This document shows positions 9,650 to 30,769 of a stretch of 64,000 nucleotides of DNA, one piece after another. Under the pieces are notes generated by a model. The model saw only the letters and a program-made list of their open reading frames with translations. It searched no databases and was not told the origin of the DNA. The stretch's first letter is position 1, and each line of letters opens with the position of its first letter. The DNA comes from Polyangiaceae bacterium (GTDB taxonomy: Bacteria > Myxococcota_A > Polyangia > Polyangiales > Polyangiaceae), in assembly GCA_019637295.1 (NCBI GenBank), contig JAHBVX010000016.1, positions 62,001-126,000 on the forward strand. Direction: 5' to 3'. The translations under genes were made by a program, and so were the position numbers.

Positions 9650-10342
9650 TCACACGTCCCATGCTACCTCACATGCGAGGTATTCACCGATGACCATTCG
9701 AACGAGAAGTGGCCGGCCAGGTGACGCGAGGAACCGATATCGCCCCGACTGCACGACGATCCAACTCGGCGAAGGGACTCCGTGCTCGAACATCCGCATC
9801 ATCGCACGCGATCCCATCTCAGGGAACAGGTAGCTATGGGGGGGTGTCTCGAAAGCTTCGCGTGAGTTCTCATCCAAGAGCTGCAGAGGGACGATCGATA
9901 CGGCACTAGGTTCTTCGTCTTCGACTGTGTGGAGTTCGAACGCGGCGTGTCCCTTTGCGAGCTTTAGGACTACCTTCTTGACTCGATCGAGATCGGCCGC
10001 AAAGACAGTAGTGCCCATGGTCGGCTCGGACGTGCAACCTGCGTGGATCGCCGCAGCCAGCGCGGGCTGCCGCTTGAGAATTCGGCGAACCTTTGCTCGA
10101 TGACGACTGGTTGGCGTGGTCGCACCGACTATGACGCAGTCGATTAGGACCGCGAGGTACTCCTCATCAAGCGAGAACGACGTGTTACATGCACGACAGC
10201 TAGGGACGACGGGCAGATTCTCAGGGAACGGCTCATCAAGGAGAACACGCGACGGGACATGGTCGCGCGTGTCTGGGGCAGCGCCGCAGTAGATGCACGC
10301 GGCGAGCACCCGCTCATCACCGGTTGGCACGATCTGCCTCAT
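9650..10342 (-). CDS. HNH-like (treble-clef) nuclease, last gene of the DISARM operon
   Basis: A 230-residue protein from ATG 10342. It opens with a zinc-binding HNH arrangement: C16-x2-C19 (CIYCG), D27-H28 in TRDHVPSR, and C49-x2-C52-N53 (SCRACNTSF). This fits the HNH/treble-clef endonuclease fold, in which the DH pair and the later Asn belong to the metal-binding active site. The remaining 150 residues have no known domain. It starts nine bases after the drmC stop, so it belongs to the same transcript. Its place at the end of a DISARM locus suggests an accessory nuclease. Coupling to DISARM function is inference. Confidence 0.7.
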   Translation of the reverse strand: MRQIVPTGDERVLAACIYCGAAPDTRDHVPSRVLLDEPFPENLPVVPSCRACNTSFSLDEEYLAVLIDCVIVGATTPTSRHRAKVRRILKRQPALAAAIHAGCTSEPTMGTTVFAADLDRVKKVVLKLAKGHAAFELHTVEDEEPSAVSIVPLQLLDENSREAFETPPHSYLFPEMGSRAMMRMFEHGVPSPSWIVVQSGRYRFLASPGRPLLVRMVIGEYLACEVAWDV

Positions 10343-10351
10343 GGCGGGCCC

Positions 10352-11113
10352 TCATGCACGGTCGATGACCCTCACGTCGATGAGTGCCTGGAGATGATCC
10401 CTCAGCGTCCTGGGTACCGGGCCGCCGTTTAGCAGAACGCCGGCCTCCATGTTCTTCTCCAGCGCGTGACCCGTGAGGTTTGCGCTCGTGATGAAGGCGC
10501 GCGCGCCGTCGACTACCGCGACCTTCGCGTGGACCTTGCCGTCGACGAAAGGCTCTGGCTTCTCCTTCCACGTGAAGAGTTCCGCCGAGGGGATGCGCGA
10601 GCGCATCGTGGCCGCCGGGTCGTAGTTCAGCGTGCCGCCGTGGCTCGTCGAGGCCTCCAGCAGGATGCGCAGGCGCACGCCCCGACTCGCGGCATCGTTG
10701 AGCGCCGTGACCACGCTCGCGACGTCGTAGGCGACGAAGCTCACGAGGAAGACGTCCTTGGTCGCGCTGGCGATGAGATCCAAGAGCACCTGCTCGGTCC
10801 GTCGCGTCGGGACGAAGCGCGTGGTCGGGCCGGTCCACACCAGCTCGACACTCAGCTCACGTTCGACACGCAGCCGCGCTTTGGAGGCACCGAGGAGCAT
10901 GCCCGCGACCTCGTCGCCGTTCGCCTGCACCTGCCCCCACGCCGCGACGACGCGCCCGACTGCGGCGCGCGCAGCGGGCGTGTCGGCGAGCGTGTTCGCG
11001 TTCGGAGCCGCGCCGGAGTTCGCGAGCCCGCGCAACGCCGACGCGACGGTGCGCACCTTTGCTGGAGAGACGAGAGCTACGAGGTCTACGACAGCATTGA
11101 GGAGCGTCTGCAT
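10352..11113 (-). CDS. drmC: DISARM protein DrmC, phospholipase D-like nuclease
   Basis: A 253-residue protein from ATG 11113, which overlaps the drmB stop (TGATG). It has one PLD motif, VHAKVAVVDGARAFITSANL (about residues 191-210), with the H-x-K-x4-D catalytic triad and the following SAN. PLD-fold nucleases with a single motif act as dimers. An earlier segment, TKDVFLVSFVAYDVASVVTA, is the first half of the PLD domain. DrmC is the PLD component of the DISARM core (drmA-drmB-drmC) and is reported as dispensable or accessory in some systems. Position directly after drmB supports the call. An upstream in-frame start was rejected because it lies inside drmB. Confidence 0.9.
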   Translation of the reverse strand: MQTLLNAVVDLVALVSPAKVRTVASALRGLANSGAAPNANTLADTPAARAAVGRVVAAWGQVQANGDEVAGMLLGASKARLRVERELSVELVWTGPTTRFVPTRRTEQVLLDLIASATKDVFLVSFVAYDVASVVTALNDAASRGVRLRILLEASTSHGGTLNYDPAATMRSRIPSAELFTWKEKPEPFVDGKVHAKVAVVDGARAFITSANLTGHALEKNMEAGVLLNGGPVPRTLRDHLQALIDVRVIDRA

Positions 11114-12954
11114 CAGATCCCCGCGAAAAAGGCCGCGTCGTTGACTTGCAGCGTCGGGATGACGAGCGCGCGATCGAGATAGCGGTTGCCGCACTCGCAC
11201 GACGTCTCGGAGACGAACGAGCACGCGTGGCACGAAGCGGCGTGCAGCGACGAGTCGGTCCTCGGGTTGTGCTCGGCGCACAGAGGGTCGGACGCGCAGA
11301 CCTTCGCGCGGTCGAGCGCCTGCCGCAGCAAGCGCCCGAGGTTCTCGGGCTTGCCGAGATCCACGAGACCGCCGAGCGTGCCGTCGGAGTCGGCCGCCGC
11401 AGTGTAGATCAAGATACCCGCCTGCGACTTGCCGTCCTCGGTGTCGGCGTAGACGCGCTCGCGGATGCTCGCTGCGTTGTAACCGCAGTCGAGCGCGAGC
11501 TCGCGTATGAGCAGGTGCGCGATGGTGTGGAGCAGCGCGAAGCGCATGCCGGGGAAGCCGCCGTCGGGATCGAGCTTACGCTTCGCACGCCAGCCGCGAT
11601 GCCCCCGGCGTAGCTCGGCTTCCTGGCGCCACACACCAGGATCGCCCGCCCACTTCACGAGCGCGTCCTCCGAGAACTGGAGGAAGATGCCCTCACCGTG
11701 GACCTGCGTAGCAGGCACCCAGTTCGGCGCAGTACGGCCGATGGGCGCACGCGGCGCTCGCTCCGATCCACCGCCCTCGTTGGGCGACTCGACGCGCGTG
11801 AAGCCGAGCAGCGCGTTCACTTCGCGAAGCCGCTCGAGGAGCAGCACGCGCGAGAGGTGCTTCTCGAAGCCCTTGGGAACGTCCGCCTTCTTGCTCATGA
11901 AGTGCGGGTAGTCGGTCGGCGGCGTCGGCGACGTGAGTACGTCCCACTCGGGCCCCTTCAGGTCGAGCTCCTCGTCGCCCACCGCTCCGCTTCTGTGTGC
12001 TTCGATGGCCTCCCAGACCTGCTCGCCCGTGAAGGCTTCGATGCCAAGCAACTGCGCCGACTTCTTCAGCGTCTTCACGACGGCCGCCGCCTCCACGGCG
12101 CTCTCGACGTCCTCGAAGAACGTCCAGCCATCGGCGACGAGCTGCGCGAGCGGGCTCCCCGTCTGCGGGATGGCCAGCACCGAGAGCGTCACCGGGAACC
12201 AGCCGTTCGTCGCGCCGAGCAGGATGGCGCGCGGCACTTCGGCGCAGCCGTCTTCGAACTTGTTGAGGTGCGGATGACGCCCACGACAGCCCGGCAGGTT
12301 GTCCTTGCCTGCCTGTCCGAAGGCCTGCGCCATGCTCTTGGCGGCGCTGCACGAATCGCAGCGCACCCACAGGTTCTCGGTCTGGAGCGAGGCGCCGCTC
12401 TCGAAGAAGCGCAGCGTGCCTTTGCAGCCGCTCGGCCCGCCGTGAACGAACCAGTGCCACGGGAAGTCATCGAGGTGACCCTCGCGGCACGCGAGCAGGA
12501 AGCGTGCGGGCACCGCGTCGGCGTCGCGAGGCTTCTGGTCGCCGCGCGAGCCGGTACAGCCCTTGTGGACGAAGCACGTCCGCTCGGGCCGATAGCGGTT
12601 CGCCTTCAGCTCGAACAGCCCCGCGTCGAACGGCGAGAGCAACCCGCACTTCACGCAGCGCATCCAACGGGGGAACGGCTTCACCGGAACACCGACGAGC
12701 GCCTCGGCCGAGAACGGATCGACGACGTCGCTGTCGGTCAGCGGCGGCATGCGCAGCGACTCGACCTGGTCGCCAAGCACGCGGCGCACGTTCGTGAGAA
12801 GTCGCGCCTCCTGGATCGGCTGACAGCGCCCGAGCTCCCAACGGTCGATGCCCATCGTGACGACGGAGAGGTTCGGCAGATCGATCAGCGCGCCGGGCCC
12901 GTAGGTCCAGAGGAGCTGACTCGGGCGGACTTCGCCCACCGGGGTCTTACTCAT
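11113..12954 (-). CDS. drmB: DISARM protein DrmB (DUF1998)
   Basis: A 613-residue protein from ATG 12954. It starts SKTPVGEVRPSQLLWTYGPG, the conserved DrmB beginning. It carries several cysteine pairs (RCVKCG near residue 98, RCDSCSAAK near 198). It ends with the DUF1998 cysteine cluster (CASDPLCAEH, then SCHACSFVSETSCECGNRYL), which in MrfA-like helicases binds zinc. DrmB forms a complex with the DrmA helicase and gates its DNA access. The gene overlaps drmA (ATGA) and drmC (TGATG). There is no sign of frameshift or truncation. Confidence 0.93.
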   Translation of the reverse strand: MSKTPVGEVRPSQLLWTYGPGALIDLPNLSVVTMGIDRWELGRCQPIQEARLLTNVRRVLGDQVESLRMPPLTDSDVVDPFSAEALVGVPVKPFPRWMRCVKCGLLSPFDAGLFELKANRYRPERTCFVHKGCTGSRGDQKPRDADAVPARFLLACREGHLDDFPWHWFVHGGPSGCKGTLRFFESGASLQTENLWVRCDSCSAAKSMAQAFGQAGKDNLPGCRGRHPHLNKFEDGCAEVPRAILLGATNGWFPVTLSVLAIPQTGSPLAQLVADGWTFFEDVESAVEAAAVVKTLKKSAQLLGIEAFTGEQVWEAIEAHRSGAVGDEELDLKGPEWDVLTSPTPPTDYPHFMSKKADVPKGFEKHLSRVLLLERLREVNALLGFTRVESPNEGGGSERAPRAPIGRTAPNWVPATQVHGEGIFLQFSEDALVKWAGDPGVWRQEAELRRGHRGWRAKRKLDPDGGFPGMRFALLHTIAHLLIRELALDCGYNAASIRERVYADTEDGKSQAGILIYTAAADSDGTLGGLVDLGKPENLGRLLRQALDRAKVCASDPLCAEHNPRTDSSLHAASCHACSFVSETSCECGNRYLDRALVIPTLQVNDAAFFAGI

Positions 12955-15900
12955 GGCGACTCCTCCACATCCGTCGCTTCATCCTCGGGCGTGGGGCGCG
13001 GGCGCCAGACCGGGTCTTGGTTCGAGCGATCGTCCTCCATCACGAGGTTCACGCCGGGCTCGACCTCGCGCATCGACATGGGCACGGTCCACGTCGACCA
13101 CGGCTTGATGCCCGGCGCTTCGAGCAGCGCGTACGCGGTCGGGCCCGCGCCGTATTTCTGGTAGACGAGCATGCGCCCTGGCACCGCCGCCTCCTTCGCC
13201 CACTCGTCGGCGCGGCTCTTCAGCTCGGCGGTCGCGAGGTTCTTCTTCGCGGAGTCCTCGGTGACCTCCCACGTGCGCTCGGTGACCGAGTCAACTGTGG
13301 ACGTCATGGCCGGCAGGCTCGGGCTCGTCAGCGCGCCCGCACCAGGGTTCGGAGCGAAAGGCTCGAAGCGGTTCCGCATCACGGCGAGCATCGTCCCGGT
13401 GAGCCCACGGTCCATCGCGCGTGGAGAGAACGGCGTGACCGACTGCGCCTCGACGTGTTGATAGAACGTCGCGTGGTAGTGCTCGAAGGTCTCGTAGTGC
13501 GAGAGGTCGCGCGGCCGCGCCCACGTGAGCACCGCTGCGACGAGACCGGGGAACGCACGACCCACGCGGCTCGTCGCCTGGATGTACTCGGCCGTCCCCT
13601 TGGGCTGGCCATTCACGACCATGACGCCGAGGCGGTTCACGTCCACTCCGACAGAGAGCATGTTGGTCGCGAGCACGACGTCGATCGGCCGAGGAACGTC
13701 GGGAGCCCGGTGGTTCTTCGCAAGCCGCGCCGCATTGGTGTCGTACGCCGCGTCGAAGGGAATCTCGAGCTGGTCGAGGTACTTCGGGATGTCGGCGTTG
13801 CTCACGCGCGAGGTCAGCTCGGCGATGGTCGAGACGCTCCGCTGCTCGAGCCCAGGCCGCTGCACGAGGCTCATCTTCACGCGGTACGAACGGGTCTGGA
13901 CGTCGTCTTCCGCGAGGCGCTTCATGCCGCCGAGCTCGCGCAGTGAGTTGAAGTAGCCGACCATCGTCATGTACGGGTCTGCCACCTTCCCGAAGGCATC
14001 GAAGAGTCCCTGCGCCGCCGTGAGGAACGCGGTGTACGTGCGGATCAGCACGGCAGGACGTGAACTGCCCGGCGAGCAGATACCCACGTACCGGCGTCCC
14101 GGCTTGCTCTCGACCGAGCGCTGCACCGAGAAAAAGTCATCTTCGACGTCGAGCGCCTTGGGCGGGAAGATCGCGAGGCGCCGCATGAAGACGTTGCGCA
14201 CCTGGTCGGCCGCGCGCCGGACGGTTGCGGTCGATGCGACCACCTTCGGGCGCACCTTGGTCTTCCCGATCTTCCACGAGCAGAGGTCGTCGACGGCGGT
14301 CTCGTACAGACCAACCATCGTTCCGAGCGGCCCGCTGATCAGATGGAACTCGTCTTGAATGATGAGGTCCGGCGGGCGCACACCGCGCACCGCTTTGACC
14401 TTCGCCCCGGGGTGAGGCTTCCGCGCCTTGTGGCCGCCGCCGCAGTCATGGCCCGGCCAGAGCAGTCCGTGGCGCTCGCACTCTTCACGCACGTTGCCGA
14501 AGAGCGTCCGTACCTCGGCGCGCCACGCCATCATCGCGAACTTGTCGACGGTGGCGATCATCATGGTCGGAGGCCGGTGGTAGATCTCCTCGTCGACGAG
14601 CTTCACTGGCAGCCCGGGGTGCGCGTTGCCGCTCGATTTCGCCTTGCTGAACTCGCACTGCGAGAGCTTGTCGCCGCAGTAGATGGCGGTCCGCCCAGCG
14701 GTCTTGTCGACCTCGATGTCGCGCCCGGGCTGAATCTCGGTGCCGCACCACGGGCAGCTCGTGAGCTGCGCGGGCGACGCGATGCCGGCACGGTTGCGGT
14801 CCTTGTCGCGGATGGCCTCGATCGCTTGGTGCGAGGTCTCGGTGGTCCCCGGCGTCACCTTGTTGCCGACCCACAGCCCGAGCGTGAACGGTTCCGCGCC
14901 CCACTTGGCGACATCCCCGGTGCGGATGATCTCCATCGCGCAAAGCAGCGTCGCGGCCCGCTGGAACTGCTGCAGCGTCAGGAGGCGCAGCGTGTAGCGC
15001 ATGATGACGGTGAGCCCGCGGCCACCGTCGAGGTTCTCGATGATGCCCTGCAAGCGTCGGATGCCCATCGCGAAGGCGGCAACGCCCAAGTACGCCTCGG
15101 TCTTGCCGCCGCCCGTGGGGAACCAGAGCAGGTCGGCGAAAGCTTCGGCGGGGCTCGTGCGGTCCGGGTGCTTCGGGTCGGCGAGTGATGGGATCGACAG
15201 AAGCAGGAACGCGAGCTGGAACGGGCGCCACGAGCGGTTCTTCCGCACGTCGACGGACTCGAAGGTCAGCTCCTCGCCGCGACGACGCTTCAGTGCGTAG
15301 ATGCCTCGGACTCGCTGGCGGGCCATCGCGCGGTTGGCAAAGCGGAATGCGTCGAGCGCCTTCGGGTCGGAGAGCAGCACCTTCAACCCTGCGCGCAGGC
15401 GGTCGAGGGTGGTCTTGCAGCGGTCGAGGGCCTCGTTGGCCGGGGCGTCGTAGCCCTTGATCTCCTTGCCGACGCGCGCGCGCTGTTCGCCAATCCACGC
15501 GGCGTAGTCGTCGACGAGCGTCTTCAGCGCCTCTTCGAGCTCGGCCTTGTCGAGATCCGCGAGCGACTGCATGTCGAGCCAGCCCCGCTCGACCATCTTC
15601 TTCATCGCGGGGCGATCGTCGGGATCGAGGCCCGGCGTCTCGGTGACGGGCACCTCGAAGCTCGGGATGACTTCGGTGCGGACCTCGATGGCGCGCGTCA
15701 GGTCGTCGTCGGGCGTCTCGGCGTGGACGGCAACGCCGTGACCCACGGCGAACTCCACGCGGCGCCGGTAGATGAGCCCGAGGTGGTCGCGCTCGGCGTC
15801 GTCCACGACGATGTCGTTGCTTGGGCGACGCAGGAACACCGGCGTCCCGGCTGCCTTACCCGCGCCCTTCACGCTCAGCTCGGGCTGAAAAAGCCAGGCG

Positions 15901-16949
15901 CTGTCGCGATTCGTCTCGGGCTCGCGCTGGTCGTTGACCAGGAACAGCGTGACCAGGCGTTCGCCCTTGGCGTTGGTGCGCACGGCTCCCTGGATGCGAA
16001 CCTCGTCCTGCTCGCTGTCGGGTGCGAGTGGCTTGATGGGGCCGTCCTCGAGCGTGAGCGTCACACGCCCACCGCGCGGCGAGCGGCGCCAGACCTTCAC
16101 CTTCGTCTCTTGGACCTCGCCGGTCTCGCGGTTCTTCCGCGGGCGCGTGTACTCGTGTTCCTCCTTCGGAACACGCGCATAGCTGCCCCAGCGTGCGGTG
16201 ACGTCGAGCGTCTTCACATCGGGACCGACGCAGAACGTGAGGCCCAGGCTCGACGGCACGAGCGACTGGTTGTTGGTCGTATCGATCTCGTCGAGCGCGT
16301 CTTCGTCGGGCTCGACACGCCCGCTCGCGCGGTTGAACTCGGCGCCCGGTTCGTGGAGCGGGGCGTCGTTCTCTTGCGCCGAGTCGTCCTCTTCGTCAGC
16401 TGCCGCTGCGGGTTCGACCTCGCTCGCCGTCGTCGCGTCACCCGGGGCGCGCGGCGCGAGCTTGCCGACGAGGTAGCGGTCGCGAACGCTCATGTCGACG
16501 ACCAGCTCCTCGGGACCGTTTGCGGGCCCGAGCAGGTCATCGCGCGTCGCCAGCTCGAGCAGATCCCGCACGTAGGCGGCGTCTTGGATGAGCGGAACAT
16601 CGTCCGACGACGACACGCCGTCGCGTGCGAGAACCGCTGACAGGTCTTCGGGGCGCACCCGCGTGACGAGCCCGGTGGGGAGCGTCAGCCCGATGTCGGC
16701 GAGCGAGCCCGCCACTCTCACCGTGTGCAACTTGTCGAAGTAGAGCGTGGTCGCTTCGAGGTCGGCGCGGATGCGGAGGATGCGCCCCACGCGCTTCAGT
16801 GCGCCGGGCGCGTCGACTACGACGACCCAGTGGCCTGGCGCCAGCGCTCCGAAGCCGACCCGATCACCGTCGAGCCGAACGACGAACGGGGTGAGCGACG
16901 TCGCCTCCCTGGCGAGCCATGCCTGTGCGTTCGGTGCGGTGGTCGTCAT
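12951..16949 (-). CDS. drmA: DISARM helicase DrmA (SF2)
   Basis: A 1332-residue protein. After a long N-terminal region (about 1-590, with an acidic stretch around 165-200), the SF2 helicase motifs follow in order: Walker A WFPTGGGKTEAYLG near 610, DEFH Walker B (LIIQDEFHLISGPLGTMVG) near 864, motif III STATVRRA, then TNMLSVGVDVNRLGVMVVNG and motif VI QATSRVGR near 1120. A cysteine cluster (CPWCGTEI ... CGDKLSQCEF) lies between Walker A and B. DrmA, with DrmB, is the DNA-loading core that senses and translocates on foreign DNA. The gene starts 18 bases after the GHKL gene stop and overlaps drmB by four bases. Confidence 0.93.
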   Translation of the reverse strand: MTTTAPNAQAWLAREATSLTPFVVRLDGDRVGFGALAPGHWVVVVDAPGALKRVGRILRIRADLEATTLYFDKLHTVRVAGSLADIGLTLPTGLVTRVRPEDLSAVLARDGVSSSDDVPLIQDAAYVRDLLELATRDDLLGPANGPEELVVDMSVRDRYLVGKLAPRAPGDATTASEVEPAAAADEEDDSAQENDAPLHEPGAEFNRASGRVEPDEDALDEIDTTNNQSLVPSSLGLTFCVGPDVKTLDVTARWGSYARVPKEEHEYTRPRKNRETGEVQETKVKVWRRSPRGGRVTLTLEDGPIKPLAPDSEQDEVRIQGAVRTNAKGERLVTLFLVNDQREPETNRDSAWLFQPELSVKGAGKAAGTPVFLRRPSNDIVVDDAERDHLGLIYRRRVEFAVGHGVAVHAETPDDDLTRAIEVRTEVIPSFEVPVTETPGLDPDDRPAMKKMVERGWLDMQSLADLDKAELEEALKTLVDDYAAWIGEQRARVGKEIKGYDAPANEALDRCKTTLDRLRAGLKVLLSDPKALDAFRFANRAMARQRVRGIYALKRRRGEELTFESVDVRKNRSWRPFQLAFLLLSIPSLADPKHPDRTSPAEAFADLLWFPTGGGKTEAYLGVAAFAMGIRRLQGIIENLDGGRGLTVIMRYTLRLLTLQQFQRAATLLCAMEIIRTGDVAKWGAEPFTLGLWVGNKVTPGTTETSHQAIEAIRDKDRNRAGIASPAQLTSCPWCGTEIQPGRDIEVDKTAGRTAIYCGDKLSQCEFSKAKSSGNAHPGLPVKLVDEEIYHRPPTMMIATVDKFAMMAWRAEVRTLFGNVREECERHGLLWPGHDCGGGHKARKPHPGAKVKAVRGVRPPDLIIQDEFHLISGPLGTMVGLYETAVDDLCSWKIGKTKVRPKVVASTATVRRAADQVRNVFMRRLAIFPPKALDVEDDFFSVQRSVESKPGRRYVGICSPGSSRPAVLIRTYTAFLTAAQGLFDAFGKVADPYMTMVGYFNSLRELGGMKRLAEDDVQTRSYRVKMSLVQRPGLEQRSVSTIAELTSRVSNADIPKYLDQLEIPFDAAYDTNAARLAKNHRAPDVPRPIDVVLATNMLSVGVDVNRLGVMVVNGQPKGTAEYIQATSRVGRAFPGLVAAVLTWARPRDLSHYETFEHYHATFYQHVEAQSVTPFSPRAMDRGLTGTMLAVMRNRFEPFAPNPGAGALTSPSLPAMTSTVDSVTERTWEVTEDSAKKNLATAELKSRADEWAKEAAVPGRMLVYQKYGAGPTAYALLEAPGIKPWSTWTVPMSMREVEPGVNLVMEDDRSNQDPVWRPRPTPEDEATDVEESP

Positions 16950-16967: not shown

Positions 16968-18959
16968 TCAAAGGCTCCCCACGAGCTTCTCGAGCTTGTC
17001 GAGCTCGTAGCTTTTCTGGAGGTACTCGGCGTAGGCCCTGCGGGCGCCGTCGATGAGCTGGTCGTAGAGGACGATGCGGCTGCCCTTGGACACGGCCTCC
17101 ATCGACGCCTTCACCCGGTCCACATTCGAGGCCTCGTCGATAGGCTGTCCGATGACGAAGACGACCTCGATGTTCGGCGACTCCTCGCCCTTCGCCCTCA
17201 GGATCTTCTTGATCTTGTCGACGTAGGTGGAGCCTTGCTCCTGAAGCTCGAGGAGCTTCATCTTGCGGCCGACCTTCTTCAGCTCCACGACGACGTGCTT
17301 GCCAGCCGTCGTCTGGTACTTGATGTCGACGCGCCCGAGCTTCTCCTTCTCGGTGAGGTCGTTAACGACTCCTGCGTCTTCGAGGAGCTGGCTCTCCATA
17401 ACCTCAGTTCCGGTGGCACGGTCCCACGCCGGATCGAGCAGCCAGAGGTGCTTGAACAGGTACTGCTGGAGAACTCGCTCCTTCGCGTCCTCGTCGACGA
17501 TCTTCTGGAACGCGCGGATGGCTTCGAGGCGCGACTTCACGATGTCGCGGTAGAGCGATGCCTCGAGTGCGTCCCGGTCTGCGAGTAGCCGGAACAGCAG
17601 TTCGATGTTGTCGACCGCCTGCTGCGCGAACTCCTCGGTCGAGCCGCGCAGCTTCATACGCTCGAAGGCGAAGATGCCGTGTTTGTAGAGCAGCTTTCGG
17701 TCCTCTTCCTCCTCGACCGGCAGCGAGCTGAGCTTCGCGATCAGCGTCTCAGCGCTCTTGCGATGTCCCTCTTCGAGCTGTTCCAGCCACTCCGTGAGCG
17801 CCGGAGACTGCTGCTTCGCCTTCTCCAACTCGTGCTTCTTGCGCCACTCGTTCCAGCGCTTCTCGACGTCGCTCAGGGTATCTTTCACGAACGTAATCAG
17901 CGCGAGATAGCGATGGTCGTCCTCCTGGACGCGCTGGCGATCGCTCGTGGCGATATCGGGCTCGTCATCGATGTCGAGGAAGTCGGCTTCGATCTGGCCC
18001 GTGAGGTACTTCGTGTAGTGCCGACCGTCGTTGATGCGGTCGAGGATGTTCTCGTGGATGAGGCGGCCGCGCGCGAAGACGACGATGCCGTTGAGGTTCC
18101 CGAGCTCCTTGCCGCCATCCAGGTCCTTCGGCTTGGCGGCGGTGCCGATCCATCCACGGATGGCCCACGTCGGGTTCCACTCGGCGATGCGCTCATCGAC
18201 TGCTTCGCGCTCGAGCACGTTTGCGAGCGTCGTGGGGAGCGAGTCGTCGCCCCTGAACGTCCACAAGAACTGGGTCTTCTCGAGGTCACCACGGTCTGAC
18301 GCGGTGATGGGCTGGTCGTCGATCGTGATCTTGAAGCCACGAGCCTCGCCGATGACGGAGAAGCGGCGTGCGAGCCGCTTCCGCAGTGCATCGACGCCGG
18401 TTCCGAGGCGCTGCCGCTTGATGTCTCGCAGCACGATGCGGGTGCCGCGCGTCACGGTCACGTCCTGCGCTGCGAGCGGAACTGGGTTGTAGGTCGTCTT
18501 TGCCTCGACGGCCTTCTTGATGCCATCGACGCGCATCGTGAAGCCCGCTGCCTGCTGGCCGTCACGCGCCGACTGAACCTCGATCTCGTTGGCGATGGAG
18601 AACAGAGAGAGCTTCCCGAGCCCCTTGCGCCCCATCACTGGGCGCTGTTTCGCGGTCATGCGCCCGTGTTCGTCGCCTTCGTCGCGTCGACGGTAGCCGA
18701 CGCGGAGGTACTTGCCGTTGAGGTCGCCGACCGACATGCCGATGCCGTCATCGACGATCTCGATCCACTGCGCCTCCTTCGCTGGGTCGACGCGGATCGT
18801 GACGTTCTCCGCGTCGGCGTCCCACGCGTTCGCCACCGCCTCCGTGAGCACGGCAGCGATGTTGCTGTAGAGGTTGATGCCGAGATGCTCGAGGACGTTG
18901 AGGTCCACGGTCATCTCGAACGTCGGAGGTGCCGCGCCCGCGAGAGCGAGTTGGTTCAT
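16968..18959 (-). CDS. GHKL ATPase with C-terminal PD-(D/E)XK-like nuclease domain
   Basis: A 663-residue protein from ATG 18959, overlapping the drmMI stop (ATGA). The N-terminus has the GHKL (Hsp90/MORC-like) ATP site: the N box LTEAVANAWDADAENVTI (residues about 37-54), the G1 box VDDGIGMSVGDL (near 68-79) and MGRKGLGKLSLFSIA. A charged helical middle follows (about 350-420: RWNEWRKKHELEKAKQQ). Near residues 540-560, GRVDIKYQ followed by HVVVELKKVG has the spacing D-x(n)-E-x-K of PD-(D/E)XK nucleases, as in Shedu-like domains. ATP-driven clamp opening coupled to DNA cutting is a plausible role. It is not one of the named DISARM core genes, yet sits inside the operon. Confidence 0.8.
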   Translation of the reverse strand: MNQLALAGAAPPTFEMTVDLNVLEHLGINLYSNIAAVLTEAVANAWDADAENVTIRVDPAKEAQWIEIVDDGIGMSVGDLNGKYLRVGYRRRDEGDEHGRMTAKQRPVMGRKGLGKLSLFSIANEIEVQSARDGQQAAGFTMRVDGIKKAVEAKTTYNPVPLAAQDVTVTRGTRIVLRDIKRQRLGTGVDALRKRLARRFSVIGEARGFKITIDDQPITASDRGDLEKTQFLWTFRGDDSLPTTLANVLEREAVDERIAEWNPTWAIRGWIGTAAKPKDLDGGKELGNLNGIVVFARGRLIHENILDRINDGRHYTKYLTGQIEADFLDIDDEPDIATSDRQRVQEDDHRYLALITFVKDTLSDVEKRWNEWRKKHELEKAKQQSPALTEWLEQLEEGHRKSAETLIAKLSSLPVEEEEDRKLLYKHGIFAFERMKLRGSTEEFAQQAVDNIELLFRLLADRDALEASLYRDIVKSRLEAIRAFQKIVDEDAKERVLQQYLFKHLWLLDPAWDRATGTEVMESQLLEDAGVVNDLTEKEKLGRVDIKYQTTAGKHVVVELKKVGRKMKLLELQEQGSTYVDKIKKILRAKGEESPNIEVVFVIGQPIDEASNVDRVKASMEAVSKGSRIVLYDQLIDGARRAYAEYLQKSYELDKLEKLVGSL

Positions 18960-21900
18960 CGGGGCCTCCGTGTGCTGGTCTTCTTCGCGGGACCGGCGGC
19001 CGCCTTCGAACTTGGGGACTTGGGCGCGGGCGCCTCGACGAGGGCGAGCGCGCCCTGGCCAGCAGGCGCCGCCTTCGAGCGGCCCTTCGAGGAGCGACGC
19101 TTCCCAGCCGGAGCCGCCGCCTGTTCTTCCGTGTGGCGCTGGCGATTCAACGTAGAGAGCCGCTTGAGCACTTCGCCGCGGGCACCTGCCGAGACGCCAT
19201 AACGTTCACCTCGCTTGGTCGAAACGAAGTCGTGGTTCAGCTCGATGTCCTTCCATCCGTATGCATCGAGGACGGCTCGATCGAGCTCTGCGATCAGCGC
19301 TCGGAATCGAACGACATCGGCGTCCTGCTCACCCTGTGAGTGAACCAAGTTGTAGACACCCGTGAACCCCAACTGCCGCTCGCGACACATCGCCGCGCGG
19401 TGTTCGAAGTACTCCCTCCCGATAGCCTCAAGCCGAGCGTCCGTCGCGTCATGAGCAAGCTCGCCGGCGACCAGGAGACACGACGGGAACGGGAAGGTGT
19501 CAAAGCAAGTCGTCCCTACGTATGCCGGGGTCTCGCCGGTTGAAGATCCCCACAAGAGCGCCCACTCGGTGTGAGCCACAGACTGAAGAACGGCAAACGC
19601 ACTATGGGTGCCGAAGTCGAAAAGCTTGACCTTCTCCGAGTAGATGTTGGTGGGGTCGCCGAAGGTGATGCAGAAATGCTTCGACAGCTTCGAGGTCACC
19701 AACGCCGTCCCGTGCTGTCGAACACGGTTGTGAAACGCCTCACGACGGTCCCAGAACTTCCAAAAGCACGCCTCGTGAACCTGGCGGGTAAGCGTGTCTC
19801 GATAGGGCTTCACTCGTTCTTCGAGGATCGCCCAAGGCGTCTTGAATCGCCGAGCCTCGTCCTCGTCCCGGGTCCAGAAGTTGATGACCCATCGAGAGCC
19901 CGTCTGACGCGGGCAGTTGTTGATGTCGTCGCCAACGATGTACTTCGTGATCACCGCACTCGACTTCGGCTCCTTCGCAAGAACCGAGGTGGCTTCCGCC
20001 TCGTCGAGAACAAAGCCGATTCCCTGAACCTTCACGCCGTCCGAGCAGAAGCCGACGTTGGAGTTGAGCGCCTCGGGTTGGTCAAGTTCAGAACCGGGCT
20101 CCAGCATCGTCGTGATGGCATCGACGCCCGCACCATCCAGAAGGATCTGGCCCTCCCACGGGTGCATGCTGAACACCATTACGGAAACATGCACTCCCGC
20201 AGTGCCCGGCCAAGGGAACGAGGACAAGCCGAAGTAGGTCGTTGCGCGCTCGAACACACGAGCCAACGCCTGAGTTCGGGTATCGCTCTCCGTGATCGAG
20301 TCCGTAGCGATGAAACCGGCGGTGCCGGTGGCGCGCAGTAGTCGAAGTGACCGGACGAGGAAGTATGCGACAAGGTTCACAGAGCCCTTGGCGCCATCCA
20401 GGATCAGCCGCTTCAGGGATTTCTCGAAAGCATCGCCGAAATTGGAGGAGATCTTTCGACCTCCCATGAACGGCGGATTGCTGACCCATGCGTCAAAGCC
20501 AGGCGCCTCGCGCACGTAGACCTCGGGAAAGGCGAGCATCCAGTGGAAGGGACGCCGGGGCGTGCCGCTCGGAGAATCCTTGGCCAGATCGTTGTTTGCC
20601 TGGCTCATCAGTGTGTCGAGCGCACGCTCCTCGCCCTTCACCACGCGTTCAGCATCGGCAGCGAGCGCCGCAAGACGCGTCTCGACGTCCCCTCCCTCGG
20701 CCGCGAACACCACGCCGATGAAGGCGTCGGCGAGCAGCTCCGCGGCTTTGAGCTTCTTGCGGGCGTCTGCGTCGAGCGTAGCCATCGCCTCGACGTCCCG
20801 GATATCGCGGATGGGGATCTCGTGCAGCTTGCGGCGGAGCGCGACCGCCTCGGCGACCGCCTTTTCGATGGCCTTACCGAACAGACGTCCCTGCCGCGTG
20901 GCGGACGGGTCGAGCGACAGCTCCGTAAGCTGCTCGAGGCGGCTGATGCCGAGCAGGCTGTCGCCGCGACGGAGGTTGTGGTCGAGGAAGCCGAAGGGGC
21001 GGCCCTTCGAGAGCGTCACGAGCCACAGCGAGAGCTTCGCCAGTTCGACGGCCAGCGGATTCAGATCGACGCCGTAGAGGCATCGCTCGGCCACGATGCG
21101 CCGCGCATTCTCGGCGCGCGCCTCCACGCTGGGGGGCATGCACTCGACGCTGGTACGCGGCTCGTGGACCTGTCCCGTGAGGTCGACGACGCGCCCGGCC
21201 GCCTCTTCGATGGCCCACGCCTCGACGAGGCGCGCGCTCAGGAAGCGACACGCCTGCACGAGGAACGCGCCGGATCCCATCGCGGGATCGCAGACCTTGA
21301 GCTCGAGGAGCTGCTCGGGCGTCTTCAGCTTCCATTCAGCGCGCGGTGCACCCTTCGCGGGGCCGTCGTAGACGAGCGGCGTGAGCGTCTCCTCGACGAT
21401 GCGCTCGGTGAGGCTCTTGGGCGTGTAGTGCGTGCCGGTCTCGCGCCGATCGGCGCCGAGCACGACGACGAACGCCCCCTTTGGATGCACCAGCGGGTAG
21501 CCCCACGGGTCGGTGCGCATCAGGCGGACGTAGGGCGCGAGGCGATCGCGGAGCTTTACATCGCCGCGACATGCGGAGAGCAGGCGCGCGTTCTGCTGGG
21601 GCTCGACTTCGGCGGCCAGGGCGTTCTTGATGGCCGACTCCGAACGCTTCGAGCGCTCGACGAGCAGGCTCGTGACGACGGCCTGGCCGTCGAGGCGCGC
21701 CGACTCCAGCTCGCCGAGCGTGACGCGCGCGTCCTTGGCCTGCGCGCCCGCTTCGAGCTCCAGCGTCACGTCCTCGACGCGCGAGACGGTGCGTTCGAGC
21801 AGACCCTCGTAGACGTGACCGATCTGCTCGACGTCGAGGGCACGGTACGAGAGCGTGCGCCCATCGAAGGTCTGGATGGCTTCGAGCAGCAGCAGCACCG

Positions 21901-23059
21901 TGCGGTCGTCGATGGGCAGCGGCTCGGCGCGATGCTGCCGCCAGGACGTGCCCTTCAGCCGTCCTTCGAGGAACGGAAAGCGGTCGGGGTTGAAGAGCGA
22001 GCCGCCCATCGCGGGCAAGCGCAACGTCGGGTGGTCGATGCCACCAAAGACGGCGCGGAACACAGCGAGCAGCCGAGACCACGACGCGCGCCTTCGTTCC
22101 AGGATCTCGTCGCTCTCGGCGCGGAGCTGCATGCGCAGTGTCGAGACCGCGTAGAACGAGTCGTAGCGGGGCTCGCCCAAGAGCAAGAGCCCGCGCTCCT
22201 CGGCGGCGAGGAGGAACACGAGCCGCATCATCACGGTGAGCCCGGCTTCGTAGAGTTCCTGAGGCCTAACGTCGCGCAGCAGCTCGCGGTTGCGATCCTG
22301 GTCGGCGCGGTCGAGGGCCTGCACCAGCACCTCGATGGCGCGCCGCACCTGATCGCCGAGGGCGTCGGTGACCTCGTCCTGGTGCTTCAGCGAGCGCTCG
22401 AAGAGCGCAGGAAGCCGGTCCTGCGCGGGCGCGAAGAAGCGGCGCACGCCGAGCAGCGACGTGAACGCGCGCAGAGTGGCGGGCTCCTGGCCCCAGATGC
22501 GCGCGTACCAGCTCGCGAAGGTCGCCACTTCGCCGGTGGGCGCGTGGACGAGCATCCACCGCTCGCCGTTCGTCACGATTCCGAACGGCACGTCCAGCGC
22601 GCGAAGGTGCAGCGCCATGCGGTCGCCCGCCGAGCACGAGAGCCCACCGAACTTCATCGACGCCGAGAGGTCGGTGTCGGGCGGGAAGACGTGAACCGGC
22701 GCGAGCACCGCCGCGCCATGCGTCGGGTCGACGAACACGAACTCGGGCGCGATCGCGGTGTCGTGTTCGGGCAGCTCGACGAGCGATGCCGGAACGTCCT
22801 TGCCGGCCTTGAGCAATTGGTCGTCAGCCTCGAGCGCTGTACGCAGCACCTCGTCGATCCACGCGGCGTGGAGCTTGTCGCGGTCGGCGTCGTCGCCATC
22901 GACCGCGTCACGCCATTCCTCGTAGGCGCTGCGCAGGCGCTTGGCGCGCGAGGAGTCCAGCTCTTCGAGGCCCTGCGGGAACACCTCACGGAGCACGGGC
23001 ACCGCGAGGAACGGGCCCGAGACCTCGAGCAGGTTCAGCCACTCGTGCTTGGCGCTCAC
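18956..23059 (-). CDS. drmMI: DISARM class 1 adenine methyltransferase DrmMI
   Basis: A 1367-residue protein. The start GTG 23059 (SAKHEWLNLLEVSG) is chosen because GGAGGAAG lies five bases upstream and the frame overlaps the drmD stop as GTGA; upstream in-frame starts lie inside drmD. Methyltransferase motifs are GTHYTPKSLTERIV near 541 (target domain entry), DPAMGSGAFLVQAC near 590 (motif I, SAM binding) and NPPFMGG near 856 (motif IV, N6-adenine). The architecture matches the large PglX/DrmMI type enzymes, which modify host DNA so that the system spares it. The C-terminal tail is Ala/Lys/Arg-rich. Confidence 0.92.
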   Translation of the reverse strand: MSAKHEWLNLLEVSGPFLAVPVLREVFPQGLEELDSSRAKRLRSAYEEWRDAVDGDDADRDKLHAAWIDEVLRTALEADDQLLKAGKDVPASLVELPEHDTAIAPEFVFVDPTHGAAVLAPVHVFPPDTDLSASMKFGGLSCSAGDRMALHLRALDVPFGIVTNGERWMLVHAPTGEVATFASWYARIWGQEPATLRAFTSLLGVRRFFAPAQDRLPALFERSLKHQDEVTDALGDQVRRAIEVLVQALDRADQDRNRELLRDVRPQELYEAGLTVMMRLVFLLAAEERGLLLLGEPRYDSFYAVSTLRMQLRAESDEILERRRASWSRLLAVFRAVFGGIDHPTLRLPAMGGSLFNPDRFPFLEGRLKGTSWRQHRAEPLPIDDRTVLLLLEAIQTFDGRTLSYRALDVEQIGHVYEGLLERTVSRVEDVTLELEAGAQAKDARVTLGELESARLDGQAVVTSLLVERSKRSESAIKNALAAEVEPQQNARLLSACRGDVKLRDRLAPYVRLMRTDPWGYPLVHPKGAFVVVLGADRRETGTHYTPKSLTERIVEETLTPLVYDGPAKGAPRAEWKLKTPEQLLELKVCDPAMGSGAFLVQACRFLSARLVEAWAIEEAAGRVVDLTGQVHEPRTSVECMPPSVEARAENARRIVAERCLYGVDLNPLAVELAKLSLWLVTLSKGRPFGFLDHNLRRGDSLLGISRLEQLTELSLDPSATRQGRLFGKAIEKAVAEAVALRRKLHEIPIRDIRDVEAMATLDADARKKLKAAELLADAFIGVVFAAEGGDVETRLAALAADAERVVKGEERALDTLMSQANNDLAKDSPSGTPRRPFHWMLAFPEVYVREAPGFDAWVSNPPFMGGRKISSNFGDAFEKSLKRLILDGAKGSVNLVAYFLVRSLRLLRATGTAGFIATDSITESDTRTQALARVFERATTYFGLSSFPWPGTAGVHVSVMVFSMHPWEGQILLDGAGVDAITTMLEPGSELDQPEALNSNVGFCSDGVKVQGIGFVLDEAEATSVLAKEPKSSAVITKYIVGDDINNCPRQTGSRWVINFWTRDEDEARRFKTPWAILEERVKPYRDTLTRQVHEACFWKFWDRREAFHNRVRQHGTALVTSKLSKHFCITFGDPTNIYSEKVKLFDFGTHSAFAVLQSVAHTEWALLWGSSTGETPAYVGTTCFDTFPFPSCLLVAGELAHDATDARLEAIGREYFEHRAAMCRERQLGFTGVYNLVHSQGEQDADVVRFRALIAELDRAVLDAYGWKDIELNHDFVSTKRGERYGVSAGARGEVLKRLSTLNRQRHTEEQAAAPAGKRRSSKGRSKAAPAGQGALALVEAPAPKSPSSKAAAGPAKKTSTRRPR

Positions 23060-26000
23060 GACTTCCTCCGCGTGGCGAGTGACTCGGGCACCAGGAGGAT
23101 CACCGAGACGGGGAACGTGTGGTCGACGAGGCCGGTGTGGCGATCTTCGATGGCGAGGCGCTCTCGTTCGCGCTCCTCGGGGATGCGGCGTAGGCGCGCC
23201 TCGAGTGCGAGCCTGTCGCGCCGGAGCTGCGTTCGTTCGTCCTCGGAGAATAGCGAGAGCTGCTTCGGCTCCTCCCGCTTCAGCTCGGCCTCGAGGTTCT
23301 TGGCGAGGTCGTCGAGGAGCTGGGTCATCTCGTCGATCTCTTTGCGCTTGCGGGCTTCGATCGTGGACCCGAGACCCTTGAGGCGGTCCCTCGAGCGCGT
23401 GGTGACGGCACTCAGGACCGCCTCGGTGTGCTTCGTGAACCGCGTGCGCAGGGCATCGAAGAGCGAGTCGTCGATGGTCCCCGGCGCCGACGAGTCGAGC
23501 CAGTCGCGCAGTTTGGTGATGCCGTCCTCGCGCTTGAAGCCCGCGTCGCGCAGGTAGCCGCCTGCTTCCGTCAGCTCCTCGTGCAGGCGATGGTGGTTGC
23601 CTCCGGTGATGACGAGGCGTGAGACGACGAGGACGGCGGGCGCGTCGAGCTTCGCGTCGGGCAGCGTGCGCACCGTGACGCGGTTCAGCTTCTTCACGTC
23701 GTCTCGCGCCCACACCTCGGCACGCAGAAGCCGCAGGCTCATCTGCACGAGCGGGTGGTTCAGGTGGACGAGCACCACGTCGTCGCGGCCCTTGGCGGCG
23801 TCGTGGTCGAAGGTGATGGGGCGGATGCGCTTCGTGTACGGGTGCTCGAGCCCGTCGAGGCATCGCGACCACGAGCCCGCGAGGGCGGGCATTTGGAACA
23901 CCCGGGGCGCGGGAAGGTCGGCCAGCTTCGCGGGCGTAAGGTCGGGCTTGTCGGTGAGCGCCAAGGCGACGCGCACCACGCGCTCGATGCGGTCGGGCGT
24001 GAGGTGCTGTTCGCTGCGTGTCGTCGTCAGGCGTTCGTGCAGCTTGGCGATGCGCTCGCGCAGCTCGCGCTCGGCCTTCACGTAGCGGCGGGCGCGCTCA
24101 ATGCGCTTCTCGGCGAGGCCGGTGTCGAGCTCACGTCGGCGGCCTTCCAGGAGGTTGGGTAACTGCGGGGCGATGACCGGGTTGACGCTGCCCATGTCGG
24201 CGCGCATCGCGTCGAGCTTGCGCAACGCGCGCAGGATGTCGTCGCCGTGCCCGCCGCTCGCATCGACCGGGTGCCAGATCACGACCTCGCTCTGCTTCTG
24301 CCCGTGACGGTCGACGCGGCCGTTCCTCTGCTCCATCACGTTTGGGTTGTAGGGGATCTCGACGTGGACCAGCAGGTTGCAGTGGTTCTGCAGGTCGATG
24401 CCCTCCGAGGCCGCGTCGGTAGCGAGCAGGATGCGGACGGGCGACTCGCGAGGATCGGCCTGGAACGCGGCCTTCACCGCCTCGCGATCCTTCGAGTCCA
24501 TGCCGCCGAAGATGAGAGCGAGGCGCTTACCGCCGAGCCCGTGGCTCGCGAGGATCTCATGCAGCCAGACCTGCGTGGTGCGGTACTCGGTGAAGAGAAT
24601 GACGCGGGCGTTCGACCAGTCACCCTTCGGCTGGAGGTTCTCCTTCAACCAGCGCACGAGGGCTTCGGCCTTGGAGTCGGGGCGGTGGCTCGCCTGCTGA
24701 GCCCACGAGCGCAGTCGCTCGATCAGCCGGCGCTCGTCGGCCAACAGCGGACGAAGACGGCGGCTCGCCTCCTCAATGGCTTCGCCTTCGGCCGCCTCGC
24801 GCGTATCGTCGTCGGCGTAGTCCTCTTCGGTCTTGGCGATCGCGCGACGCAAGATGCGGTCGTCGAGGCCCGAGGTGCGTCGTGTGGTCTCCAACTTTCC
24901 CTCAATGGTTGCGACGTGGCGCGCGAACGTCGACATGAACGCCGCGGGCGACGACGCGAGGCGCTTGCGCAGGAGCTGGTGGACGAAGTGCGAGGCGGCG
25001 CCTTCGCGCTCGTCCTGTTTCTCGCGGCTGGCGATGTACTGCTCGAGGAGCTGACGGGCCTCGCGCTCCTCGGCGGTGTACTCGACGTTCAGCGCTTCGA
25101 GGCGGCGTACCGGATAGAGCTTCTTGCCCTTGGCGTCGACGAGGTCGCTCTTGAGGCGCCGAACCATGACGCGCGCGAGCTGGTCTTCGGGCGGCAGGAT
25201 GTTGCGTGAGAAGCGCTGGTCGTCGAGCAGCTCGAGGAGCGCCGTGAACGATTCGGTGTAGCCGTCGTGCGGCGTCGCCGTGAGGAAGAGCTTGTGCTGG
25301 AAGTGGGGCGCGAGCAGCCGCACGAGGCGGGTGCGTAGGCTTTCGACGGCGTACTTGCCGACGGTGGGCGCGACGTTGTGGGCCTCGTCGACGACGAGCA
25401 TGTCGAAGCGGCGCGGGAACGTCGGCTGCGGCGGGAGCACGTCGCGCAGGAGGCGGATGCCTTCGCCTTGCTTCGCCCAGTCGATGGAGGCGATGAGCCT
25501 CGGGAACGAGGTCCACGGGTTCGCGTGCAGCCCACGCTCACGGCGCAAACGCTTGACCAGGTCGGTGTCGACGATGCGGAACTCGAGGCCGAACTTCTCG
25601 GCCATCTCGTTGCGCCACTTCTCCTGCAGCGACGACGGGCAGAGCACGAGGATGGTCCGCGCGCGGTGGCGCAGGAGCATCTCCTGGATGACGAGCCCAG
25701 CCTCTATGGTCTTGCCGAGGCCGACGTCGTCGGCGATCAGCAGGTTCGTGCGCGCCATGTCGATCGCGCGCACGAGCGGATCGAGCTGGTAGTCCTCAAT
25801 GCTCACGCCGCTTCGGAAGGGCGCCTGGAGGTAGCCGCGATCGGCGTTGGTCGCCGCGCCCCAGCGAACGGCGTCGAGGAAGGCTTCGAGCTTCGACGGG
25901 TCGTCGAGCGCGGAGAGTGTCGGCAGGCCCGCGCGCTCGATGACGTGGGCGCCGGGCTCGAGCTCCCATAGGACTTCGATCTCCTCGCCGAGCGCGTCTT

Positions 26001-26169
26001 CGTCGATCGACGCGAGCTTCACGAGGTTTTGTTTGGGCAGTTCAGGGGAAACCGCCGACGCATCGACATCCGACACGATCCATTGACGTCGCCGCACTTC
26101 GACGAGCTGCCCGGGCTCCGGGGCGGTCGCCGATAGCACCGAGATTTCCGTCGCGAGTCGGTCCGTCAC
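23056..26169 (-). CDS. drmD: DISARM class 1 SNF2-family helicase DrmD
   Basis: A 1037-residue protein from GTG 26169 (TDRLATEISVLSAT), overlapping the vsr stop as GTGA. SNF2/SF2 motifs are ADDVGLGKTIEAGLVIQEML (Walker A, near 150), VVDEAHNVAP (Walker B, near 258), ATPHDGYTES, then LFTEYRTTQVWLHEIL, ATDAASEGIDLQNHCNLLVH and QRNGRVDRHGQ (motif VI, near 613). The C-terminal 350 residues are charged coiled helices. DrmD defines class 1 DISARM and is adjacent to drmMI as in known class 1 loci. Confidence 0.92.
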   Translation of the reverse strand: MTDRLATEISVLSATAPEPGQLVEVRRRQWIVSDVDASAVSPELPKQNLVKLASIDEDALGEEIEVLWELEPGAHVIERAGLPTLSALDDPSKLEAFLDAVRWGAATNADRGYLQAPFRSGVSIEDYQLDPLVRAIDMARTNLLIADDVGLGKTIEAGLVIQEMLLRHRARTILVLCPSSLQEKWRNEMAEKFGLEFRIVDTDLVKRLRRERGLHANPWTSFPRLIASIDWAKQGEGIRLLRDVLPPQPTFPRRFDMLVVDEAHNVAPTVGKYAVESLRTRLVRLLAPHFQHKLFLTATPHDGYTESFTALLELLDDQRFSRNILPPEDQLARVMVRRLKSDLVDAKGKKLYPVRRLEALNVEYTAEEREARQLLEQYIASREKQDEREGAASHFVHQLLRKRLASSPAAFMSTFARHVATIEGKLETTRRTSGLDDRILRRAIAKTEEDYADDDTREAAEGEAIEEASRRLRPLLADERRLIERLRSWAQQASHRPDSKAEALVRWLKENLQPKGDWSNARVILFTEYRTTQVWLHEILASHGLGGKRLALIFGGMDSKDREAVKAAFQADPRESPVRILLATDAASEGIDLQNHCNLLVHVEIPYNPNVMEQRNGRVDRHGQKQSEVVIWHPVDASGGHGDDILRALRKLDAMRADMGSVNPVIAPQLPNLLEGRRRELDTGLAEKRIERARRYVKAERELRERIAKLHERLTTTRSEQHLTPDRIERVVRVALALTDKPDLTPAKLADLPAPRVFQMPALAGSWSRCLDGLEHPYTKRIRPITFDHDAAKGRDDVVLVHLNHPLVQMSLRLLRAEVWARDDVKKLNRVTVRTLPDAKLDAPAVLVVSRLVITGGNHHRLHEELTEAGGYLRDAGFKREDGITKLRDWLDSSAPGTIDDSLFDALRTRFTKHTEAVLSAVTTRSRDRLKGLGSTIEARKRKEIDEMTQLLDDLAKNLEAELKREEPKQLSLFSEDERTQLRRDRLALEARLRRIPEERERERLAIEDRHTGLVDHTFPVSVILLVPESLATRRKS

Positions 26170-26606
26170 GAATACCCCTTTGCCTTGCGGACACGGACGA
26201 GTTTCGCGATTCGTGAGGCTGCTTCGTGCGGTTTATCGTGAGCCCAAATGCGAACGACCTCCCAGCCCTGGGCGAGGAGACGGGCGTCGGTGTCGAGGTC
26301 ACGCTGCCGGTTCGCGACGATCTTTGCGCGCCAGAACTCGGCATTCTGCTTGGGCCACGTCGCGTGCTGGGGGCAGCCGTGCCAGAAGCAACCATCGACG
26401 AAGACGACGACGCGGGGACCAGCGAATACGATGTCCGCGACCCTGCGCGGTTTGGTCAAGATGGGGACTTGGACGCGATAGCGAAGTCCGAGGGCATGGA
26501 GCTCACGACGAAGTGCCGACTCGGCAGAAGTGTTCTTCTGCCGAACCCGCCGCATGCGGCGACTCGCTTCAGGAGAGGACGGCGCTGCGCGCGTGCCTGC
26601 GGCCAT
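26166..26606 (-). CDS. vsr: Very short patch repair (Vsr-type) endonuclease
   Basis: A 146-residue protein with the Vsr pattern: VRQKNTSAESALRRELHALG at the start, the catalytic Asp in RRVADIVFAG (D58), the hallmark FVDGCFWHGCPQH (residues 69-81) and NAEFWRAKIVANRQRD. Vsr nicks the T:G mismatch that arises when 5-methylcytosine deaminates, and vsr genes usually neighbour the cognate C5 methyltransferase. Here the annotated start lies inside the 3' end of the methyltransferase gene (38-base overlap); a later start at MRR (residue 18) is possible. It is located between the methyltransferase and drmD, so it is co-transcribed with DISARM. Confidence 0.9.
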   Translation of the reverse strand: MAAGTRAAPSSPEASRRMRRVRQKNTSAESALRRELHALGLRYRVQVPILTKPRRVADIVFAGPRVVVFVDGCFWHGCPQHATWPKQNAEFWRAKIVANRQRDLDTDARLLAQGWEVVRIWAHDKPHEAASRIAKLVRVRKAKGYS

Positions 26607-28910: not shown

Positions 28911-30632
<1,722 letters not shown>

Positions 30633-30769
30633 GTCCGTGAGTTCGGTCACGACCTAGTCTTCGCGAATCTCGGTCACCCTATCGAAGACGCCCTCGGGTA
30701 ACCCAGCCTTCGTGGTTGGCGCCCGTCCGTTACCAAGACAATCTCACGGTTGGACGGCTCCTTGGCGTA

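Follow-up and report, generated by a model that had tools for sequence, protein, structure and literature searches.

The window, by which we mean the whole 64,000-nucleotide stretch of Polyangiaceae DNA that was analysed, carries a class 1 DISARM operon on its minus strand. Its genes run in one direction in the order C5M - Vsr - DrmD - DrmMI - GHKL/nuclease - DrmA - DrmB - DrmC. The gene under study, a minus-strand reading frame at 16968-18959 that encodes 663 amino acids from an ATG at 18959, lies between drmMI and drmA. The features are listed below.

26569-27732, minus strand: m5C DNA methyltransferase (C5M), M.HgiDII-like, at the operon head (PF00145, 2.6e-53; dcm)
26166-26606, minus strand: Vsr-type mismatch endonuclease (TIGR00632, 4e-32)
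23056-26169, minus strand: DrmD, SNF2-like helicase (NF038317, 1361 bits)
18956-23059, minus strand: DrmMI adenine methyltransferase (PADLOC DrmMI, 1724 bits)
16968-18959, minus strand: predicted GHKL ATPase - PD-(D/E)XK restriction endonuclease (REase) of the BbrUII/HgiDII family, paraMORC3 architecture, 663 aa (NCBIfam NF050001, PADLOC REase_II)
17820-18911, minus strand: predicted GHKL + S5 (transducer) ATPase module, residues 17-380 (AlphaFold2 model, MORC3 match)
16971-17432, minus strand: predicted C-terminal nuclease domain, residues about 510-663 (separate AlphaFold2 model; E522, D545, E559-x-K561, Q575)
12951-16949, minus strand: DrmA helicase, class 1, short form (NF038325, 1466 bits)
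11113-12954, minus strand: DrmB (NF038324, 736 bits)
10352-11113, minus strand: DrmC, phospholipase D-like (NF038319, 249 bits)
28911-30632, plus strand: large serine recombinase whose 3′ end overruns the tmRNA 3′ end (PF00239, PF07508)
30543-30891, minus strand: tmRNA (ssrA), integration target (ARAGORN; Rfam RF00023, 129 bits)
30544-30565: att-like 22-bp repeat at the tmRNA 3′ end, near element end (exact direct repeat)
6571-6592: att-like 22-bp copy of the tmRNA 3′ end, far element end (exact direct repeat of 30544-30565)

The five DISARM neighbours match curated class 1 families (DrmD, DrmMI, the short form of DrmA, DrmB and DrmC), and the genes for the m5C methyltransferase and the Vsr-type endonuclease stand upstream of drmD, co-directional and almost gapless. 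When the junctions were read from the sequence, the drmMI stop and the REase ATG were found to overlap by 4 bp (ATGA), and the REase stop was followed after 18 bp by the drmA ATG. Both spacings had been given in an initial annotation of the locus and are exact; its placement of the gene, here on the minus strand, inside the DISARM operon also stands, as the gene is co-directional with curated drm genes on either side. Translated from the plus strand, these coordinates are interrupted by stops. A GGAGG-type site lies 5′ of the REase ATG, drmMI starts with GTG in a 4-bp overlap with the drmD stop, and the drmC ATG overlaps the drmB stop.

Two further genes border the operon. After drmC, a minus-strand frame (9650-10342) encodes a 230-aa protein with CxxC pairs and a DHVPSR motif that looks HNH-like by eye; it matched no family, and it has homologues near the REase loci L053 (40%), L075 (48%) and L084 (36%; L numbers denote compared loci). 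Divergent from the operon on the plus strand, 27987-28757 encodes a 256-aa possible MerR-like protein with a sub-threshold Pfam match, a candidate regulator.

The stretch between the two att-like repeats (6571-30565; 23,995 bp) includes the whole DISARM operon and has a GC content of 65.3%, against 70.6% to its right. It is most simply read as an integrative element in ssrA. Inside it, a minus-strand gene at 7709-8317 encodes an AbiEi-type antitoxin-like regulator (PF13338), which had no homologue in the other DISARM or REase loci compared. The recombinase, regulator and AbiEi-like genes of the window do not accompany the other DISARM loci compared.

The gene between drmMI and drmA is predicted to encode a known type of restriction enzyme

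The REase matched NCBIfam model NF050001 ('BbrUII/HgiDII family restriction enzyme') with 836 bits, residues 14-662 aligning to positions 1-658 of 659 and the curated equivalog cut-off being exceeded. The cut-off of this curated model, which spans the full protein, is 550 bits, and the similarity is not due to chance. The PADLOC model REase_II (Type II REase) gave 381 bits.

The full N-terminal GHKL ATP site described in the initial annotation was borne out: HATPase_c_3 matched with E=1.9e-17, and the ATP-site residues E40/N44, D70-x-G72-x-G74, G110..G115-K116 and T173 were invariant in 44 relatives. The C-terminal E-x-K pattern with an upstream Asp turned out to be part of a fuller set than had been claimed, since E522, D545, E559-x-K561 and Q575 were all invariant in the same 44 relatives, and the same held for a second set of 19 sequences, all slot copies among them.

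In the AlphaFold2 model of the whole protein (mean pLDDT 76.5), the best structural match of residues 17-380 was the mouse MORC3 ATPase-CW structure 5ix2 (Z 23.7, rmsd 3.4 over 300 residues). The C-terminal 209 residues were modelled alone for the comparison of nuclease folds. In VIA-align the best match of this model was Shedu of Bacillus cereus (8ti8; Z 8.7, rmsd 3.8 over 158), followed by E. coli SduA (8ps5; Z 7.5) and then by Nt.BspD6I, EndoMS and FokI. VIA-align alone among the structure and sequence searches put Shedu first, and the match to Shedu is moderate. A Foldseek search with the C-terminal nuclease model gave no hit under E 0.001, and the nuclease profile, run against PDB sequences, hit only a superoxide dismutase, which was judged to be a chance match. 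At the sequence level, PADLOC SduA matched weakly (E 6e-4), and Pfam DUF4263 had no match in the REase. The structure prediction that the initial annotation had proposed thus returned a Shedu-like PD-(D/E)XK fold, and the models indicate that the gene joins a GHKL ATPase to such a nuclease.

The architecture has a precedent. In the parts of their 2008 account considered here, Iyer, Abhiman and Aravind described paraMORC3 as a GHKL-S5 protein with an RE-fold domain bearing E-D-ExK, encoded in restriction-modification (R-M) operons with SF2 helicases, cytosine methylases and Vsr (PMC2292703). Like those proteins, the window's REase combines GHKL and S5 with all ATP motifs and a C-terminal E-D-ExK, in an operon with an SF2 helicase, a cytosine methylase and Vsr; in contrast, that paper predates DISARM, and the parts considered do not describe a DISARM slot. 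By sequence, the enzyme is therefore best assigned to an already known family, BbrUII/HgiDII, with the paraMORC3 architecture of 2008.

Most relatives of the REase are found with a methyltransferase outside DISARM

Relatives of the REase were collected as 80 loci from 84,980 genomes and 79 from IMG/VR. Fifteen REases lie between drmMI and drmA (the window, L048-L057, L059, L060, L062 and L128); apart from the window, their hosts are a gemmatimonadete and Pseudomonadota of several classes. Others stand beside DISARM genes at different positions (after drmC in L058 and L069; also L075 and L099), and a Deinococcus plasmid (L043) has an R-M cassette beside DISARM. In most of the remaining genome and viral loci, the REase gene adjoins one of the head methyltransferase's family, in some cases together with Vsr, and DISARM is absent; such stand-alone pairs occur in L010, Rhizobium (L044), Burkholderia glumae (L045), Halobaculum (L047) and phage PhiR44_1 (L046), the record of which is annotated ParaMORC3 + Dcm. 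Because most relatives form methyltransferase-REase pairs without DISARM, the sequences indicate that the family belongs mainly to type II R-M, with one subclade in DISARM. The initial annotation had proposed a new DISARM effector or sensor, which does not agree with a named restriction family, the 2008 description and the predominance of pairs outside DISARM.

In the P2-like E. coli phage PhiR44_1, the methyltransferase and REase genes are convergent and sit between capsid and replication genes. A planctomycete locus (L061:7629-11941) reads C5M - Vsr - 136-aa DrmD fragment - REase and looks like a decayed DISARM in which the R-M parts were retained.

The survey for a homologue at the same position had a divided outcome: 14 other loci carry one, but most DISARM loci lack the REase. 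In the phylum of the window, DrmA-S exceeded its cut-off in 55 of 379 genomes (61 at E<=1e-100), and the REase family did so in 2 of 379, one of which, the window, has it within DISARM. A DrmA-seeded survey also led us to reject the REase as a DISARM core gene, as it is missing from most class 1 loci and the slot is filled otherwise.

The head methyltransferase has a conserved recognition region

Nearly all close relatives of the REase have an m5C methyltransferase of this one family with them, and none of the slot-REase loci or genomes that were checked lacked it. For six slot- or DISARM-linked loci in which the operon head was out of view, the family was present in the genome or record in 6/6; in L048, L054 and L128 the gene lies just past the edge of the stretch analysed, and the L048 frame contains a stop.

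We compared the window's head methyltransferase with its relatives. In the head METHYLTRANSFERASE, the identity of the recognition region to that of the window was 72% in DISARM loci with the REase, 74% in DISARM loci without it and 64% in stand-alone pairs, and the corresponding values for the rest of the protein were 51%, 55% and 45%. The recognition domain is thus better conserved than the remainder, with or without the REase. In the methyltransferase tree, 12 of 15 DISARM sequences fell in one clade, in which REase-bearing and REase-less loci were intermingled; those of two Roseobacteraceae loci lay outside it. This intermingling weakens the idea that the REase and the head methyltransferase form an exclusive pair.

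M.HgiDII is an m5C enzyme that methylates GTCGAC (PMC5867850). In the class 1 DISARM of Serratia sp. SCBI, an m5C methyltransferase is present, and one of the two motifs given in the part of the account considered here is the m5C motif YMTmCGAKR, with a TCGA core (PMC9142583). Like that system, the window's operon has DrmMI and an m5C methyltransferase; unlike the window, the Serratia locus as described in that part has no mention of a GHKL-nuclease. The GTCGAC specificity is experimental for relatives and assumed for the window's REase. GTCGAC is mildly depleted in 464 kb of the host genome, taken from 20 stretches (observed/expected 0.78, z -4.3), a value that is not unique, since z is lower still for 4 of the 41 palindromes that could be tested. 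The head methyltransferase could protect the host because its family normally partners this REase, and it probably shields the host from the enzyme in the window. With a head methyltransferase in the operon, the REase could occupy the slot without bringing its own.

The drmMI-drmA junction is a variable slot for defence genes

DISARM loci were gathered via DrmA and their junction lengths compared. The gap between drmMI and drmA exceeded 600 bp in 25 of 35 loci (median 2435 bp), although in the largest of these gaps the upstream methyltransferase hit may not be a true drmMI. The drmA-drmB gap exceeded 600 bp in 0 of 47 loci (median 21 bp), and the drmD-drmMI gap did so in 4 of 31. The slots of L273, L283, L289, L292 and L295 were left unannotated. 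Slot contents are mutually unrelated and mostly belong to known defence families, amounting to more than a dozen cargo types at one fixed position. Cargo other than the REase included the following.

L207, L259, L261, L306: GHKL ATPase + Methyltransf_35
L259: PDC-M65
L260: PD-T7-3
L279: DRT UG5-nitrilase reverse transcriptase
L305, L307: UvrD-like helicase + DUF2290
L265: Fic
L270, L308: GmrSD
L276: Septu PtuAB
L287, L293: PD-T4-6-like kinases
L271: PDC-M56
L297: HEC-01A-like ATPase

Some slots hold a PifA-like KAP NTPase, a second DrmD-like helicase or an AspBHI-like enzyme alongside the REase. These observations identify the drmMI-drmA junction of class 1 DISARM as a variable slot for exchangeable defence genes. 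A single class 1 DISARM position with many alternative cargoes appears to be undescribed in the literature searched, which did not extend to the original DISARM paper.

Two cargoes deserve separate mention. The recurring pair of a 470-aa GHKL ATPase and a 331-aa Methyltransf_35 protein (L207:11561-13975, L259:7389-9799, L261, L306) is not in PADLOC and is a candidate new defence pair. In L048:11970-16732 and L049:11965-16718, a diverged DrmD-like SNF2 helicase (1043 aa) and a 544-aa protein of no known family lie between the REase and drmA.

Cargo is exchanged between closely related operons

Near-identical DrmA proteins flank different cargo: those of L052 and L305 are 95.9% identical (729 aa), and those of L054 and L307 are 94.9% identical (1323 aa). 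The window's DrmA is 84-86% identical to that of two loci with PD-T7-3 or GHKL/Methyltransf_35 in the slot, the PD-T7-3-bearing locus being the nearest (86%). Unrelated defence genes in the slot of the nearest DISARM relatives speak against the DISARM-specific role that the initial annotation had suggested. A drmA query against E. coli genomes, in search of DISARM with different cargo, found no match.

On the DrmA tree, REase presence required seven changes, forced by starred branches, while in the REase tree a single starred set of 17 took in all 15 slot REases. The enzyme of the window clusters with those of burkholderial loci (identity 70-72%). The window's DrmA, DrmD and C5M are 70, 74 and 63% identical to those of Roseomonas (L057), and 62-63, 65-67 and 59-61% identical to those of the burkholderial REase loci. 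Because the histories of REase and DrmA disagree, at least some REases must have moved between operons, and the trees thus indicate that the REase has been transferred from one DISARM operon to another.

Discussion

We consider it likely that the gene encodes a type II REase of the BbrUII/HgiDII (paraMORC3) family that is carried as exchangeable cargo in the drmMI-drmA slot of class 1 DISARM, an ATP-gated cutter from which the operon's methyltransferase protects the host. The analysis itself shows that the protein belongs to this family, has the predicted folds and keeps its catalytic residues, how the operon is laid out, that the slot varies and its cargo is swapped, and that the recognition domain of the methyltransferase is conserved. 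In the working that we propose, ATP would dimerise the GHKL-S5 module, which would clamp DNA as MORC, MutL and Hsp90 do, and closure of the clamp would license the C-terminal Shedu-like PD-(D/E)XK nuclease. The nuclease would cleave DNA at TCGA-core sites (GTCGAC or something close to it) that have not received m5C from the operon. The antidote that protects the host would be the m5C methyltransferase encoded at the operon head, and Vsr would mend the T:G mismatches that arise from deaminated m5C. The REase would thereby add a sequence-specific cutting layer to DISARM that is probably independent of DrmAB.

The window's enzyme resembles BbrUII/HgiDII enzymes in its full-length NF050001 match, its m5C methyltransferase partner of the same family and the conserved recognition region. 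Unlike in their pairs, it is separated from the methyltransferase by vsr, drmD and drmMI and stands inside a DISARM operon. One account of this layout is that the C5 methyltransferase, Vsr and REase made up a single HgiDII-type R-M system that fused with DISARM ancestrally, the REase being lost later elsewhere while the methyltransferase and Vsr were kept. The order C5M-Vsr-DrmD-DrmMI-REase-DrmA-B-C is kept in many loci, the slot REases are almost one clade, as are 12 of the 15 DISARM methyltransferases, and the Deinococcus plasmid has the cassette and DISARM side by side. The conflict between the REase and DrmA histories, by which some REases moved between operons, makes this account unlikely as the whole explanation, although it carries appreciable weight and an ancestral fusion is compatible with the cargo explanation as its first step.

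It is considerably less probable that the protein is a Shedu-like, VcSduA-type single-gene anti-phage nuclease that does not depend on modification, to which the methyltransferase would be irrelevant. VcSduA of Vibrio cholerae, a GHKL-DUF4263 fusion, protects against phage by itself, for which its ATPase and nuclease residues are both required (PMC12137116), and Shedu is the top nuclease fold match here; like VcSduA and Shedu, the window's protein would fuse a GHKL ATPase to a Shedu-fold PD-(D/E)XK nuclease. Unlike the single-gene VcSduA, it shares its operon with an R-M-family methyltransferase and matches DUF4263 weakly. The full-length equivalog match is to restriction enzymes, against an SduA match of E 6e-4, and one methyltransferase family stands beside nearly all close relatives and in every slot-REase genome examined.

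About equally improbable is that the REase is an integral DISARM effector, with DrmAB binding unmodified foreign DNA and recruiting the ATP-gated nuclease to degrade it: the tight translational coupling to drmMI and drmA, the 15 loci with the REase at the same position and, in the part of the published DISARM account considered here, a dispensable DrmC and a route of DNA degradation called an open question (PMC9142583) would suit such a role, but most class 1 loci lack the REase, unrelated genes replace it between near-identical DrmA flanks, and its family occurs as methyltransferase-REase pairs without DISARM.

The preferred reading, an R-M enzyme as DISARM cargo, has parallels in which a separate defence gene is housed in another defence operon, namely BrxU/GmrSD in BREX, PrrC in EcoprrI and ShdA in Pseudomonas DISARM-like operons (PMC12373910, PMC12707154, PMC10270631). 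Unlike the BrxU, PrrC and ShdA cases, the cargo here sits at one fixed class 1 DISARM position that receives more than a dozen unrelated types, two GmrSD copies among them. More tentatively, class 1 DISARM as a whole might be a docking operon, in which a fixed slot places interchangeable defence genes under translation-coupled expression and the head m5C methyltransferase is a ready antidote that lets REases of matching specificity travel without a methyltransferase of their own; the cargo may then be a second line that fires when a phage disables DISARM.

These results correct the reading of the gene, which would encode a known restriction enzyme and not a part of DISARM; what appears to be new is where the REase is found, a slot for cargo within class 1 DISARM. 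The drmMI-drmA slot is a place in which anti-phage genes can be discovered by position, and near-identical DISARM operons with different cargo are a natural series for testing whether embedded systems cooperate. The analysis further hints at what the m5C methyltransferase and Vsr at the start of some class 1 operons may do, and the slot cargo is a possible reason for the differences in DISARM activity from host to host.
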